From the IMG/VR virus record IMGVR_UViG_3300032954_000018, positions 1 through 54,164 of that record: 54,164 nt of DNA; one strand, given 5' to 3'. The stretch comes from a virus. Shown here in pieces: positions 181 to 40,219 of this stretch; position 1 is the stretch's first letter; each line of letters opens with the position of its first letter. The notes below the pieces were generated by a model, which was not told the origin of the DNA, searched no databases, and saw nothing but the letters and a program-made list of their open reading frames with translations. The position numbers and the translations under genes are program-made.

Positions 181-276
181 AAGTCCTCAAAAATTTTCTG
201 AGAGAACAAGACGTGGGGAAAGGAAATAGTATAAAATAAACCCACACCATGCGCTACTCAGAAGGATTGAATTAGG

Positions 277-347
277 GGAACTAGCGGAACGGAGACTGCC
301 CCGAGGGGCGGTTTTCACATTGAAAGAAGTATCCGTTTCCTATCGCC
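277..347 (-). ncRNA. Structured RNA module, unit 2 of a tandem pair
   Basis: Read on the minus strand this runs from GGCGATAGGAAACGGATACT to GTTCCGCTAGTTCC. AACGGA (332-337) pairs perfectly with TCCGTT (288-293); a GC-rich hairpin of CCCC/GGGG lies inside. The neighbouring unit at 371-425 has the same 5' and 3' conserved boxes, but its stem is GCAGTT/AACTGT, so the pairing is kept while the bases change. No open frame covers it. Related boxes occur on the plus strand at 29.7-30.3 kb. Function unknown. Confidence 0.5.
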
Positions 348-370
348 ACCTAAACTTTATTGAATATCGA

Positions 371-425
371 GGAATAAGCGGAACAGTTTGTTTTCTTTTT
401 CATAGAAGTAACTGCTTCCTTCGCC
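371..425 (-). ncRNA. Structured RNA module, unit 1 of a tandem pair
   Basis: Minus-strand order is GGCGAAGGAA, CAGTTACTTCT, an A-rich loop, AACTG, GTTCCGCTTATTCC. CAGTT (410-414) pairs with AACTG (384-388). It is the first of two tandem copies downstream of a promoter-like sequence at 438-466. The rest of the 181-443 gap holds no credible protein frame. Not a known RNA family to me. Confidence 0.5.
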
Positions 426-437
426 ATCGATAAATAC

Positions 438-9575: not shown

Positions 9576-9783
9576 TTTCCCTCTCAAGATGGAGAAGCGT
9601 TGTGGTTGTGGTAATTTCCTCACAGTGGAGTTCAGTTACCCGGATAAAATCACTGTCTACCAGAGATCGGGCTGCTTCGTATGTGGCCGGTTTTACATTG
9701 GTCTCATAGTGCTTGATGTAATCATCACTCACCATACCCCGAATTTGCCCTTTCACATAGATTCGGTAGATTGTGTGTACCAT
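9568..9783 (-). CDS. Hypothetical protein, 71 aa
   Basis: Start ATG 9783 with GGGGGTTTG upstream. Small beta-rich domain (YRIYVKGQIRGMVSDD). First gene after the promoter at 9820-9848; overlaps the UBP-finger gene by 8 nt. Confidence 0.7.
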   Translation of the reverse strand: MVHTIYRIYVKGQIRGMVSDDYIKHYETNVKPATYEAARSLVDSDFIRVTELHCEEITTTTTLLHLEREND

Positions 9784-26638: not shown

Positions 26639-26914
26639 GTGGAACTATCACTATTCAAGCCCTCCCCTGAAAAAAATTATTGGATTATGAGTTTTCCTTA
26701 CTACTATACGTTTGTTTTCTATGGTACGGAAACCGAAGCTAAAGAGCTATTCATCCATAAATGCGAGTGGGAAGGCACCGGGACCATGCGAAAAGCCGAT
26801 CCTAGTAACGAACAGGATTCCGCTCTGGTCCGAGAAGAAATCATTAATGTACGGCTAGACAGAGACGCGGGAATCCCTAACCTGCCTTTCTTGCCGGGAC
26901 GAGGTTGGTTATGA
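26639..26914 (+). CDS. Hypothetical protein, 91 aa
   Basis: GTG 26639 with GGGGGT upstream. YYYTFVFYGTETEAKELFIHKCEWEG is a small alpha/beta sequence. Coupled to the release-factor-like gene. Unknown. Confidence 0.65.
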   Translation: MELSLFKPSPEKNYWIMSFPYYYTFVFYGTETEAKELFIHKCEWEGTGTMRKADPSNEQDSALVREEIINVRLDRDAGIPNLPFLPGRGWL

Positions 26915-27273
26915 AGCCAAAAACTATATCGAACGATGGTGCAAAACCAGTCTTGACCCTAACAGCTAAAGACTTTGTTTTCCAGACTTTCTGTACTGGC
27001 GGTAAAGGCGGTCAGCACCGGAATGCTAAACAGAATGGTGTGCGGTGTATCCATCCCCCTTCCGGGGCTAGAGGAGAGCACAGAGACGGGCGAGATCAAC
27101 ATCTAAATAAACGGGAAGCTTTCCGTAAATGTGCAGAATCTCCTGAAATGCAAGCATGGTTGAAGATCGAAACACTTAAAAGAGTGGGAAAAATAAGAGA
27201 TATCGAAAGAGCGGTAGAGGAGCAAATGGCTCCTGAAAACTTAAAAATAGAGGAAATTGATGGAAGTTGTTAA
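26911..27273 (+). CDS. Class I release-factor-like GGQ protein, 120 aa
   Basis: GGQ at residues 33-35 in TGGKGGQHRN, then VRCIHPPSGARGEHRDGRDQH and a helical basic tail, match the RF-1 catalytic domain. It lacks the codon-recognition domain, so it resembles ArfB/YaeJ or PrfH-type peptidyl-tRNA hydrolases that rescue stalled or damaged ribosomes. Usual ArfB length is about 140 aa. Start ATG 26911 with GAGG. It lies between a tRNA and metabolic genes, fitting phage control of translation. Confidence 0.88.
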   Translation: MKPKTISNDGAKPVLTLTAKDFVFQTFCTGGKGGQHRNAKQNGVRCIHPPSGARGEHRDGRDQHLNKREAFRKCAESPEMQAWLKIETLKRVGKIRDIERAVEEQMAPENLKIEEIDGSC

Positions 27274-28863: not shown

Positions 28864-29105
28864 TGCGCAACCAAGATACTTTTTCCAAAAATCTTTATGT
28901 GGTAGTTTGGGCAGGCTGTACTATTCCACTTTCTGGAAGAAGTTTTGATAACGAAGAAGAAGCAATAGAGATGTTTAAAGTTTGGATAGATCAACCGGGA
29001 ATACGGATTGAACGGATGATGGCGGCTTTCGTGTTTGATACTCTTTTTACAAAAACTACTTTTGAGAAATATATTGATGAAAACAATAGAAAATCTGGAA
29101 GCTGA
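28863..29105 (+). CDS. Hypothetical protein, 80 aa
   Basis: TAATG overlap upstream. LYVVVWAGCTIPLSG followed by helices. Its 3' end is overlapped by the HNH gene, which may have inserted here. Confidence 0.6.
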   Translation: MRNQDTFSKNLYVVVWAGCTIPLSGRSFDNEEEAIEMFKVWIDQPGIRIERMMAAFVFDTLFTKTTFEKYIDENNRKSGS

Positions 29106-29520
29106 AGAATGGAGACAAGTTAAAAATAGTCTTGATCTTTATCAAGTATCAAATAAAGGAAGAATAAAGAGAATATGTGAAACCCATGAACGATTGCTTA
29201 AAACCCCTCCTACTGCGTTAGGATATCTAAGATTTAATATTAGCATAAACAATAAATCAAAATCTAAGTACGTTCACGTAGCCGTAGCAGAAGCTTTTAT
29301 ACCAAATCCTGAGAAAAAACCCACAGTGAATCACAAAGACGGAGACAAGACTAACAATTGCGTAGGCAATTTAGAATGGGCTACCCGAAGTGAAAACAGC
29401 CAACATGCTTGGGACACCGGATTGTTTAGTCACGAAAAAATGAAATCTTCTCAATTATTAAGGCGGAAAAAAGAAAAAAGTTTGAAAGAAAACCTCATAA
29501 CACAGATTTTGGGTGTATAA
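29077..29520 (+). CDS. HNH homing endonuclease (NUMOD4), 147 aa
   Basis: EEWRQVKNSLDLYQVSNKGRIKR is a NUMOD4 DNA-binding motif; VNHKDGDKTNNCVGNLEWAT is the HNH catalytic core with the conserved NLEW. Mobile, free-standing endonuclease. It ends right at the noncoding tRNA-like cluster, and its stop codon lies in a TATAAT-like -10 (29516-29521). Confidence 0.85.
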   Translation: MKTIENLEAEEWRQVKNSLDLYQVSNKGRIKRICETHERLLKTPPTALGYLRFNISINNKSKSKYVHVAVAEAFIPNPEKKPTVNHKDGDKTNNCVGNLEWATRSENSQHAWDTGLFSHEKMKSSQLLRRKKEKSLKENLITQILGV

Positions 29521-29715
29521 TAGATACTAGGAGAAAATATGACGTAGAAGAATGTGAAATACTTCTATATATTTGTTACTTCCCGCATGTAGGTTCGACT
29601 CCTACCAGACTGTTGTAAGGTCTGTTCTCCTGTATCGGAAAAGGGAACCCGTAAGGGTGCTGAAAGATTAATTCCTGTATCTTGTGTTCTCCTATTTAAG
29701 TTTCGAGTAGCGATA

Positions 29716-29810
29716 GTTACAATTCCATCATTAGTTCGAATCTAATAAGCCCCCCAAAATTTATGGGGCTTACGCCTAGTTGGTTAGGCAGTATTGTAGC
29801 GCAAGTTCTC
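29716..29810 (+). tRNA. Circularly permuted tRNA-like gene, candidate 1
   Basis: Order: ACAAT (anticodon-stem 3' strand, 29719-29723), variable TCCATC, T-arm ATTAG-TTCGAAT-CTAAT (29730-29746), acceptor 3' strand AAGCCCC (29747-29753) followed by CCA, short linker, acceptor 5' strand GGGGCTT (29765-29771), D-arm GCCT-AGTTGGTT-AGGC (29774-29789), ATTGT (anticodon-stem 5' strand). The 3' half precedes the 5' half; all four stems pair. Weak points: positions 8-9 read AC not TA, the junction before the anticodon stem is 3 nt, and no anticodon can be assigned. Confidence 0.5.
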
Positions 29811-29932
29811 TCGGACAGTTTCGCAGGCCGTTTTGGTGATTCTGAGCGTTTTGCAAACGGGAGCAGCCCGATATAGCTGCTTAAGTTATAACCGCTTCGG
29901 CGGATTCAAATAGCGATAAAAACAGTTACTTC

Positions 29933-30012
29933 TTTCGCCGCCATCTTTGGCGAAATAGCTCAGCGGTAGAGCATCCACTTCATACGTGGAAGGTCGTGGG
30001 TTCGAATCCCAT
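29933..30012 (+). tRNA. Permuted tRNA-like gene with CAU anticodon, candidate 2
   Basis: TTTCGCC-G-CCA (29933-29943), a complete acceptor 3' strand with discriminator and CCA, then TCTTT, then GGCGAAA (29949-29955), perfectly complementary. The body is canonical: TA, D-arm GCTC-AGCGGTA-GAGC, anticodon arm TCCAC-TTCATAC-GTGGA (CAU), variable AGGTC, T-arm GTGGG-TTCGAAT-CCCAT ending 30012. What follows is TTTCAGT, which pairs at only four of seven positions. So the proper 3' acceptor strand lies upstream of the 5' end. Confidence 0.6.
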
Positions 30013-30050
30013 TTTCAGTTCTGTTTTGCCTGTTCTTTTGAATAATTTTC

Positions 30051-30096
30051 GGGAGTGTCCCTCAAGACTATCGGGTAAAAACCGAAACTCCCACCA
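30051..30096 (+). ncRNA. Minimal tRNA-like hairpin ending in ACCA
   Basis: GGGAGT (30051-30056) pairs with ACTCCC (30087-30092), followed by ACCA; between them TCGG-GTAAAAA-CCGA forms a 7-nt-loop arm in the T-arm position. Only 46 nt, with no anticodon arm. A minihelix-like element; may be chance or a remnant. Confidence 0.35.
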
Positions 30097-30113
30097 AGTT
30101 TGGGTAGTGTTCA

Positions 30114-30185
30114 TTACGAGTACATCAACTGGATAGATGAATTGTCATAGACAATGTGTTGCCGATTCAATCCCGGCCTCGTATG
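30114..30185 (+). tRNA. Degenerate or atypical tRNA
   Basis: Acceptor TACGAG/CTCGTA (6 bp), TA, D-arm CATC-AACTGGATA-GATG, anticodon region ATTG-TCATAGA-CAAT (4-bp stem, CAU out of register), T-arm GCCGA-TTCAATC-CCGGC with one mismatch. No CCA. Total 72 nt, one base short before the anticodon arm. It may be a decayed Met-type tRNA. Confidence 0.45.
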
Positions 30186-30243
30186 TTTTGTTCTCCCAAT
30201 AATTTTAAAGCCTGAGTAAATCCAAAGTGTAGTGGCTTTAATA

Positions 30244-30325
30244 GCAAGTAGTGAAAGTGTCAGTTACTTCTATATTTACTCAAAAATAAACAGAAAAAAC
30301 AACTGTCACGCTAGTTCTCTTGCAA
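30244..30325 (+). ncRNA. Structured RNA module, plus-strand copy
   Basis: GTGTCAGTTACTTCTATATT, an A-rich loop and AACTGTCACGCTAGTTCTC. CAGTT pairs with AACTG and the flanking GTG with CAC, with one mismatch. The boxes match the two minus-strand units at 277-425, including the CGCTAGTTC 3' box. Confidence 0.45.
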
Positions 30326-30520: not shown

Positions 30521-31123
30521 ATGGCTAATGTAAATTCCAGTAATGGATTTTCTGGGCTTCCCGCACAGAGCATCACTACCACCACAGAAACTACTCTGCT
30601 TGTTCCCGCTGCTTCTGCACTTTATCAGGGCCTTCCTTCCCCGATATTTGCTGCTGGTGCGGGTCTTTATCTTGCGCTTGATCCTGATTTCCAGTCTGGG
30701 AATCCCCAAGCCGCTTCTCCTACCTACGTCAATTCAAGCGTAGATGGAAAGCAATTCCGTATTCGTGTGGTCGGTCTTGTTACCGTTGGCGCATCCAGCA
30801 CCTTCGTTTGCAAGCTCTATCAGGGTACCAGTTCGACAGTCGGTAACGATACCGTGGTTGCGGCTTCCGCTTCCTACACTATCACCACTGCCTCCACTAT
30901 CAACTTCGTCGTAGAGAGCAATTTCCTCTGGGACAGCACTTCGAGCAAGCTTAACGGCTGGTTCTTCACTGATGTTAATAACGTGTTTACTGGTGCGGCT
31001 GCTACTACTGCGATTGCATCTCTCAGCGTTACTTCCCTTCAGTTTATTCCCAGCTTTACTTTCGGCACTTCGAATGCCGCGAATACTGTCACCGTGAAGG
31101 AATTCCTGCTCGAAAAGGTGTAA
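30521..31123 (+). CDS. Virion structural protein (paralogue of 43843-44529), 200 aa
   Basis: Ser/Thr/Ala-rich beta protein starting at ATG 30521. The region FRIRVVGLVTVGASSTFVCKLYQGTSSTVGNDT and NFVVESNFLWDSTSSKLNGWF parallels FRVRVAGNATLNAG...INLYVGTSTTTGSDT and NFVLETVVQWDATSQVLGGWY in the other protein, ending ...EFLLEKV against ...EFSAEQV. Likely capsid decoration or tail protein. Followed by a strong terminator hairpin. Confidence 0.75.
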   Translation: MANVNSSNGFSGLPAQSITTTTETTLLVPAASALYQGLPSPIFAAGAGLYLALDPDFQSGNPQAASPTYVNSSVDGKQFRIRVVGLVTVGASSTFVCKLYQGTSSTVGNDTVVAASASYTITTASTINFVVESNFLWDSTSSKLNGWFFTDVNNVFTGAAATTAIASLSVTSLQFIPSFTFGTSNAANTVTVKEFLLEKV

Positions 31124-38668: not shown

Positions 38669-39012
38669 TGGATACCAAAGATTATTCTCCCGAGCAACTA
38701 GCTCAAATCATTGAAACTGCTCAGGATGACGTAAGAAAAGCAACTGCACTAAAGATCACGATTTCTACAGAAGGATGGGGCATTCTGCTTAGTACTTTCG
38801 AGGAGATGAAAGAAAATCAACTCAACGAACTTCGTAAGCAGTCACCGGGAGATGAGAAAGCTATCCTAGCCGCACATGCTGTTTGGGCTGCTACAGAGCA
38901 TACCATCGATCAAATTCTTTCTGCAATCAACACTACGATACGGCAGGGAGCGGAATCGGAAGCCTTTTTAAGCGCAGACGTACACGACTTGCCACAAGAA
39001 GACTGGTCCTAG
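38668..39012 (+). CDS. Hypothetical head-operon protein, 114 aa
   Basis: TAATG overlap with the portal. Helical and acidic (DYSPEQLAQIIETAQDDVRKATALK). Small protein between portal and scaffold; unknown. Confidence 0.65.
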   Translation: MDTKDYSPEQLAQIIETAQDDVRKATALKITISTEGWGILLSTFEEMKENQLNELRKQSPGDEKAILAAHAVWAATEHTIDQILSAINTTIRQGAESEAFLSADVHDLPQEDWS

Positions 39013-39034
39013 GATTTAGGACAGTAGAGGACAA

Positions 39035-40219
39035 ATGCCAGCCGAAGAGAATGATCTCTATAAAGAGTGGGCTAGTGGAGTTTCACTAGCTAACCGTAAC
39101 GAATATTTTGAAGAAATTCCGATGGAAGTAAACAAGCCAGCGGAGTTTGAAGTAAAGCCAGAACAGATTCCGTCCGGACCACCACAAGCAAATCCTGACG
39201 TACCATCACAAGTAGTTCCTGCACCAGACCCAATTCCAGAACCGGAAAAGAATATAGAGGTTAGGCAGGGCAAGCATGGTGGAACTATCACTCTAGAAAA
39301 GACTAGCAGGGGATGGAGAGCGATTCTGGAAAGTGGCGAAAAGAACACCCCGGCAGAAAATTTCTACGGGGCAAATAAAGATGATCTCATCTTCCAAGTT
39401 CTAGACGGAAAGCTAGAAGCCACTAGAGCAATACATAGACTTAAGAAAGAAAAGCTTTTAGGTGGAGAGGAAAGAACTCAACTACCCTCTGCTCCTTCTA
39501 TTCAGCCTACCCCAATCCCTGCTTCTACTCTAACAGCAGACGATGTGGTAGAAATTAGAACTAAACTTCAGGACAACCCCGCTGAAGGTATTGAAACGTT
39601 CCTTAAGAAACGATTCGGACTCGATCCTGATAAGTTCGCCGCAGCCTTAAACGCAGCAGAGGAAGCCAAATCTATCCTTGCTGCTCAGACAGCCAAGGCG
39701 GATATAGAAGATGTAAATAGAGAATTCAATCGGGAGAATGTTGATTGGTCGTCAGACTATTCAATGAATCCCGAGAATGTTCGAAAGCTTATCGCACGTA
39801 TGGCGAAGGCTCATTTGAACAAAAAAGTTTCCCCCAATTCCCCGCAAGCAGTAATTGATAACACTATATACGATTTGTATACTAGGGGACTTTGGACAGT
39901 AGAAAATCTTGAGACAGCTAAAGACGAGTTGATCGATGGCGGATTGCTAGAGAAAACAACCCCGGTTAGCCCAGTTCCCACTCCGCAACCCGAACAAGTG
40001 GCCCCGCTTCCTGCGAGTGGCCCATCCGTGACAGAAGCCCCGCGTATTGCGACTCAGAGCGGACAGCCAGTGGGCTTAGGTCTGCCAGCTAGGACTTCAA
40101 CTCCTGCTGTGATACCAGACGAAAAGCCACTGTCAGACGTAGACCTTGAAAAACTTTCCATGAGCGATCTCAGGCGAGTTGCTGCTGCACAGCTTCAGGC
40201 AATGAAGAATCAGCGGTAA
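39035..40219 (+). CDS. Scaffold-like protein, 394 aa
   Basis: Highly charged, Pro/Glu-rich N-terminus, a central helical part and a Gln-rich helical C-terminus (MSDLRRVAAAQLQAMKNQ), immediately before the major capsid gene, the usual position and composition of phage scaffolding proteins. No protease motif seen. Confidence 0.75.
   Translation: MPAEENDLYKEWASGVSLANRNEYFEEIPMEVNKPAEFEVKPEQIPSGPPQANPDVPSQVVPAPDPIPEPEKNIEVRQGKHGGTITLEKTSRGWRAILESGEKNTPAENFYGANKDDLIFQVLDGKLEATRAIHRLKKEKLLGGEERTQLPSAPSIQPTPIPASTLTADDVVEIRTKLQDNPAEGIETFLKKRFGLDPDKFAAALNAAEEAKSILAAQTAKADIEDVNREFNRENVDWSSDYSMNPENVRKLIARMAKAHLNKKVSPNSPQAVIDNTIYDLYTRGLWTVENLETAKDELIDGGLLEKTTPVSPVPTPQPEQVAPLPASGPSVTEAPRIATQSGQPVGLGLPARTSTPAVIPDEKPLSDVDLEKLSMSDLRRVAAAQLQAMKNQR

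Follow-up and report, generated by a model that had tools for sequence, protein, structure and literature searches.

A tRNA-like domain in permuted order on a repeated, covarying RNA element of a soil phage

Introduction

What kind of RNA is encoded by a stretch of phage DNA in which the arms of a tRNA follow one another in the wrong order? Such an arrangement, with the T-arm first and the D-arm last, was noticed at positions 29716 to 29810 of the window, which is the complete 54-kb IMG/VR virus record IMGVR_UViG_3300032954_000018 (54,164 nucleotides). To our knowledge, descriptions of permuted tRNA genes are confined to algae and one archaeon, in which joining of the halves is ascribed to the splicing endonuclease. 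In algal permuted tRNAs, the halves are cut and joined at a bulge-helix-bulge motif; the circularly permuted genes of both algae and Thermofilum were treated by Soma in 2014 (PMC3978253). No permuted tRNA of phages or bacteria appeared in the titles and abstracts of an incomplete literature survey. A permuted tRNA of a bacterial virus, if true, would need another joining route or would have to act as a two-piece tRNA.

The locus and its permuted domain

The contig is an incomplete fragment from soil and, judging from its terminase and portal proteins, is that of a tailed phage; the closest cultured terminase, from Tunturiibacter phage Tunturi_3 (of an acidobacterium), shares 25% identity with it. 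The stretch in question is bordered by an HNH/NUMOD4 homing endonuclease gene (29035-29520) on one side and a 200-aa gene at 30521 on the other, and the 1-kb gap between them holds no convincing gene. It forms the upper part of U2, which is one copy of a repeated RNA element of the phage that we call the clamp. The parts of U2 (29702-29815) are as follows.

29702..29715, plus strand: clamp 5' side, outer helix strand TTCGAG and TAGCGATA
29716..29723, plus strand: inner helix 5' strand GTTACAAT, including ACAAT at 29719-29723 (RNAfold; aligned with GATACAAT of relative L001)
29730..29746, plus strand: T-arm ATTAG-TTCGAAT-CTAAT (scanner, permuted-tRNA model)
29747..29756, plus strand: acceptor 3' strand AAGCCCC (29747-29753) and CCA (29754-29756) (scanner, permuted-tRNA model)
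29757..29764, plus strand: linker AAATTTAT, 8 nt, A/T, with U at -1 relative to G1
29765..29771, plus strand: acceptor 5' strand GGGGCTT (scanner, permuted-tRNA model)
29774..29789, plus strand: D-arm GCCT-AGTTGGTT-AGGC; hairpin GCCGAAAGGC at the corresponding position of L001 (scanner, permuted-tRNA model, alignment)
29793..29800, plus strand: inner helix 3' strand ATTGTAGC, with ATTGT at 29793-29797 (RNAfold, L001 alignment)
29801..29815, plus strand: clamp 3' side, GCAAGTTCT and outer helix strand CTCGGA

Every part that the sequence-only reading had listed, from the T-arm and the AAGCCCC-CCA strand through the 8-nt linker and GGGGCTT to the D-arm and the outer ACAAT and ATTGT, was found where it had been placed, and the permuted order with all four stems is borne out by a motif scanner, a covariance model and RNAfold. 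We describe U2 with high confidence as a permuted tRNA-derived domain in the apical loop of a clamp. Its stems are intact (acceptor 7/7, T-stem 5/5 and D-stem 4/4 pairs), and so is its elbow at the sequence level, since G18G19, TTCGA, G53-C61 and G15/C48 are all kept within the AGTTGGTT D-loop, the TTCGAAT T-loop and their surroundings. The pairing of ACAAT with ATTGT extends outward by three more pairs (GTTACAAT at 29716-29723 with ATTGTAGC at 29793-29800), giving a continuous 8-bp helix at the break with no bulge-helix-bulge motif.

Chance is a poor explanation for this set of parts. A scanner that demanded a 7-bp acceptor, CCA, a linker, a D-arm and a T-arm gave no match in 60 dinucleotide-shuffled versions of the window (6.5 Mb); in 3.3 Mb of real viral sequence, read on both strands, it returned U2, its neighbor U3 (29933-30012) and one ordinary Ser-Ser tandem, the last sitting in two overlapping loci. 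A T-arm with an adjacent hairpin is by itself not rare, with 12 loose matches in 40 shuffled windows, but the full set is. Under a permuted-tRNA covariance model (R1), made by rotating 28 real phage tRNAs at the anticodon, U2 scores 37 bits (E 1.3e-11) as the top match in the window; the same model also matches the junctions of ordinary tandem tRNAs, whose acceptor strands pair poorly in the alignments shown, compared to the complete acceptor of U2. RNAfold returns exactly the four-way structure (z -3.43), and 0 of 200 shuffles were as stable.

How much of a tRNA U2 still is depends on the yardstick. Its 3' half stands upstream of its 5' half and all stems are present, as in a permuted tRNA gene. 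Among the consensus bases U8, R15:Y48, G18G19, U33 and TTC, it lacks the first, having A at position 8, and the others are present or possible; U3 has the whole set. Positions 8 and 9, remarked on earlier as nonstandard, are A-C. In the canonical anticodon frame (A26, GTATT at 27-31, AATTC at 39-43) there is one T-T mismatch, an acceptor of 7 bp leaves no discriminator base, and U33 and A37 have the right spacing for a loop of 7 nt. ARAGORN accepted no tRNA in rotated U2 in any of the four joins tried, and the Rfam tRNA model had no match there; by these models U2 does not count as a canonical tRNA.

That the hairpin is an intrinsic terminator and nothing else, a possibility that the sequence-only reading had raised against itself, is scarcely credible: AAGCCCC...GGGGCTT does form a stable hairpin, but it is followed by ACGCC and no T run, a terminator scan reports none there, and the T-arm and D-arm would be left unexplained. 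We also set aside a tmRNA (none was detected, no tag open reading frame was seen, and pair 3-70 is G-C, not G3-U70) and an intron of group I or II in permuted form (the Rfam intron models gave no match, and the flanks are too short). A misassembly is improbable, as it would not account for several perfect stems in swapped order.

The clamp is a repeated RNA element

In the folds of U2 and U3, pairing extends to the flanks outside the break; when these flanks were compared, a common order of parts emerged: outer helix, URGYGAWA, inner helix, insert, inner helix, GCNWGUUCY, outer helix, where URGYGAWA and GCNWGUUCY form an internal loop. Seven copies lie in the contig, four on the plus strand at 29702-30323 and three on the minus strand at 196-433, and one more lies in the relative L001. 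In both clusters the clamps are on the coding strand of neighboring genes. Besides U2 and U3, the contig copies are as follows.

364..433, minus strand: m1, clamp without tRNA
270..355, minus strand: m2, clamp without tRNA
196..263, minus strand: m3, clamp without tRNA, directly ahead of a small open reading frame
30100..30199, plus strand: U4, clamp with a linear degenerate tRNA-like sequence, no CCA
30244..30323, plus strand: U5, clamp without tRNA parts

No clamp was found in shuffles of the whole window, and none of 3,000 shuffles of the clamp region held more than one unit, compared to the 4 observed. The outer helices are of unrelated sequences, yet they are paired in 95% of cells. The covariation score was 0.94, compared to 0.34 in shuffles, and 0 of 500 shuffles scored as high. 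For this count, the inserts in the alignments had been trimmed manually, and a helix was among the criteria by which the copies were found, although the first search made no demand on the inner clamp pairs. Seven of the eight outer helix pairs change on both sides, the exception being the outermost, and two further pairs covary inside the clamp loop (A-U/G-C, and G-C to C-G in the relative). All plus-strand clamps that carry tRNA parts keep paired flanks of unrelated sequence. Neither clamp cluster matched a known Rfam family at E up to 5 or 10, the GOLLD and ROOL models included. As a covarying RNA motif that has no counterpart in Rfam and occurs with and without tRNA cargo, the clamp has a role that is directly testable.

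A covariance model built from the seven contig copies found the L001 copy (9626-9705, E 8e-4) in the same gap as U2. It aligns well with U2, with inner helix GATACAAT/ATTGTGTC and hairpin GCCGAAAGGC at the D-arm position, and has neither T-arm nor acceptor. Since the inner helix is kept there without these parts, the tRNA shape is not conserved in L001, and the strands taken earlier for an anticodon stem are first of all the inner helix of the clamp; their pairing holds, and their naming as an anticodon stem is not supported as it stood. The lack of conservation that the sequence-only reading had named as counting against it is thus partly observed. The clamp was not found in the other relatives and is known from this record and L001 only; its pattern had 120 matches in public viral contigs, with no clamp among the 80 of 120 matches listed, and two in public genome contigs, neither of which fits the clamp model. 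A likeness of UAGCGA..GUUC to 23S rRNA was considered and dropped, as the pairing differs.

U3 and a weaker neighbor

The next clamp carries a second, more complete permuted tRNA, U3, as follows.

29904..29932, plus strand: clamp 5' side, ATTCAAA-TAGCGATA-AAAACAG and TTACTTC
29933..29943, plus strand: permuted tRNA-Met(CAU), acceptor 3' strand TTTCGCC, G73 and CCA (scanner, ARAGORN)
29944..29948, plus strand: linker TCTTT
29949..30012, plus strand: tRNA body, G1 through the T-arm, with anticodon CAT (ARAGORN, Rfam)
30021..30043, plus strand: clamp 3' side, CTGTTTT-GCCTGTTCT-TTTGAAT

ARAGORN and Rfam call an ordinary tRNA-Met at 29949-30021. Its acceptor 3' strand, read linearly, is a poor partner, and the strand that does match is found upstream, at 29933-29943. 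When 29949-30012 is joined to 29933-29943, ARAGORN sees in the rotated U3 a perfect tRNA of 75 nt that has G73, CCA and the anticodon CAU. U3 is broken between the T-stem and the acceptor and U2 at or near the anticodon, in keeping with the earlier claim that the break points of the two differ. Because it keeps the full anticodon loop, U3 is a better candidate than U2 for a functional permuted tRNA. Among U3-type acceptor hairpins examined in 35 viral contigs, none had a D-arm and a T-arm.

A weak third permuted tRNA-like sequence, U1 (29580..29647, plus strand), has TTCCC/GGGAA, a T-arm and a 6-bp acceptor hairpin, with no CCA and no clamp motif; model R1 matches it at E 0.0014, and its fold supports the permuted shape. 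U1, the clamp itself and the three minus-strand clamp copies go beyond what had been noted before.

Gene, debris or clamp-borne domain

Are U2 and U3, then, true circularly permuted pre-tRNA genes, whose clamp ends are cut and outer ends ligated into a circle that then loses its linker to RNase P and 3' processing? The products would be a Met-CAU tRNA from U3 and, from U2, a tRNA whose anticodon is made by joining, e.g., GUU or AGC. The perfect rotated U3, in which the whole tRNA including its anticodon is kept, fits this route, as do the clamp, which in the fold brings the break ends together, the U33/A37 frame of U2, and the RNA ligases of relatives: one (PF09414) lies next to a tRNA-Leu in relative G002, and the distant cultured relative Tunturi_3 has two annotated along with an RNA 2'-phosphotransferase. 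Against it stand the lack of a bulge-helix-bulge motif at either break, the rejection of U2 by ARAGORN and its missing U8, and the existence of clamps without tRNA, one of which (L001) keeps the "anticodon stem" of U2; a search for RtcB, RNA ligase and Tpt1 in the window, a fragment, found none. On balance we consider this route rather unlikely. Its broadest form, in which the phage makes tRNAs from circularly permuted genes independently of bulge-helix-bulge splicing, the clamp marks and holds the ends for excision and circular ligation, and other clamps give other circular RNAs, would be a long shot.

Decay offers a different account, in which tandem duplication in a tRNA array and deletion of the outer halves left a 3' half, a linker and a 5' half of no present function. 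Four related contigs, 74-76% identical in the 200-aa gene, carry ordinary tRNA arrays in the same gap (including Pro, Ala, a CTA tRNA and Trp); the direct repeat TTTC that flanks U3 is expected after duplication and loss; U1, U2 and U4 are degenerate; and at 29541 stands what looks like the truncated start of a PTH2-like gene. However, the acceptor, T-stem and D-stem of U2 are fully paired and U3 is perfect, the tRNA-bearing plus-strand clamps keep paired flanks of unrelated sequence, and decay leaves the clamp unexplained. We regard debris as unlikely. For U2 taken singly, a tRNA-like domain or a decaying copy is the more likely status.

The reading that we prefer as a whole, at a probability of about 0.5, is that U2 is a tRNA-derived domain in permuted register on the clamp RNA. 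The clamp region would be transcribed together with the flanking plus-strand gene, and the predicted apical loop would present, in order, the T-arm, the acceptor 3' strand with CCA, the A/T linker, the acceptor 5' strand and the D-arm, of which the elbow (T-loop and G18G19) and acceptor would fold as in a tRNA. Both U2 and U3 have U at the base before G1 and an encoded CCA, which makes RNase P cleavage of the linker, 5' of G1, the simplest first step; the known substrate preferences of RNase P are the basis of this proposal. Without ligation, cleavage would leave a nicked tRNA-like RNA in two pieces, with its CCA end free and its halves held by the clamp helices. Such processing of the linker, with the clamp holding the break, has in our judgment slightly less than an even chance. 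A decoding tRNA from U3, with its intact anticodon loop, would further need the clamp ends to be cut and ligated, a step that is plausible for U3 and less so for U2.

Likeness to known systems

Two-piece permuted tmRNAs are known in alphaproteobacteria and cyanobacteria. U2 resembles them in its order of T-arm, acceptor-CCA, intervening segment and acceptor 5' strand, and could likewise work as two pieces without ligation; unlike them, it has a full D-arm, no G3-U70 and no tag open reading frame seen, and it is not detected as a tmRNA. U2 and U3 share with the permuted tRNA genes of algae and Thermofilum the 3' half before the 5' half and the short linker between acceptor strands, with Thermofilum the encoded CCA, and U2 has its break at or close to the anticodon, as type II permuted genes do, whereas the break of U3 is at a place absent from the published table of permuted tRNAs (PMC3978253). 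They differ in being in a bacterial virus and in having, in place of a bulge-helix-bulge at the break, a continuous helix and a conserved clamp loop. The clamp is, like the ornate phage RNAs GOLLD and ROOL, a noncoding phage RNA at tRNA islands, and GOLLD, with tRNAs sometimes in a linker, is a precedent for tRNAs embedded in structured phage RNA (PMC12286853); the clamp differs from both in lacking an Rfam match, in being a small repeated hairpin and in carrying permuted rather than ordinary tRNAs. The tRNA-shaped RNAs of this soil phage may be the bacterial-virus version of permuted tRNA genes, or a new tRNA-like RNA.

Other features of the phage and its relatives

A SprT-like protein used as a query for additional relatives gave no match. 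The window encodes, at 26905-27273, a small RF-1 domain protein of the ribosome-rescue type, which has a GGQ motif, and one is annotated in Tunturi_3 too. In two relatives, a PTH2-like gene interrupted early by an in-frame TAG (L001 8811-9140, L004 1983-2312; the Pfam PTH2 match is weak and in L004 only) adjoins the tRNA with the CTA anticodon, which suggests TAG recoding in the relatives; in the window only its first codons remain, at 29541-29580 (MT*KNVKYFYIFV).

The relatives also hold structured elements of their own. One (L001 9300-9405, L002 9480-9580, L004 2520-2635) consists of a hairpin, CCCGCCC-TTAAGT-GGACGGG and TGTAGCTTAAAG..GAGC, within outer helices that differ yet pair (AGTGG/CCACT, TAGCGG/CCGCTA, TAGAAG/CTTCTA); it shares the topology of a closed-acceptor permuted tRNA and was not counted as a tRNA, having no T-loop, CCA or tRNA loop sequences. 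Another (L001 9408-9475, L002 9605-9670, L003 357-430) has hairpins CAGG..CCTG and GCTAGT-CCCGTGAGAGAA-ACTAGC, the second stem of which covaries. A tRNA-like sequence at L001 9768-9880 bears an insert of ~30 nt within CTTCA...TGAAG at the anticodon position, and Tunturi_3 (L189) has odd unannotated tRNA-like sequences at 39000-39720, one called with a 4-base anticodon and one a body without matching acceptor strands.
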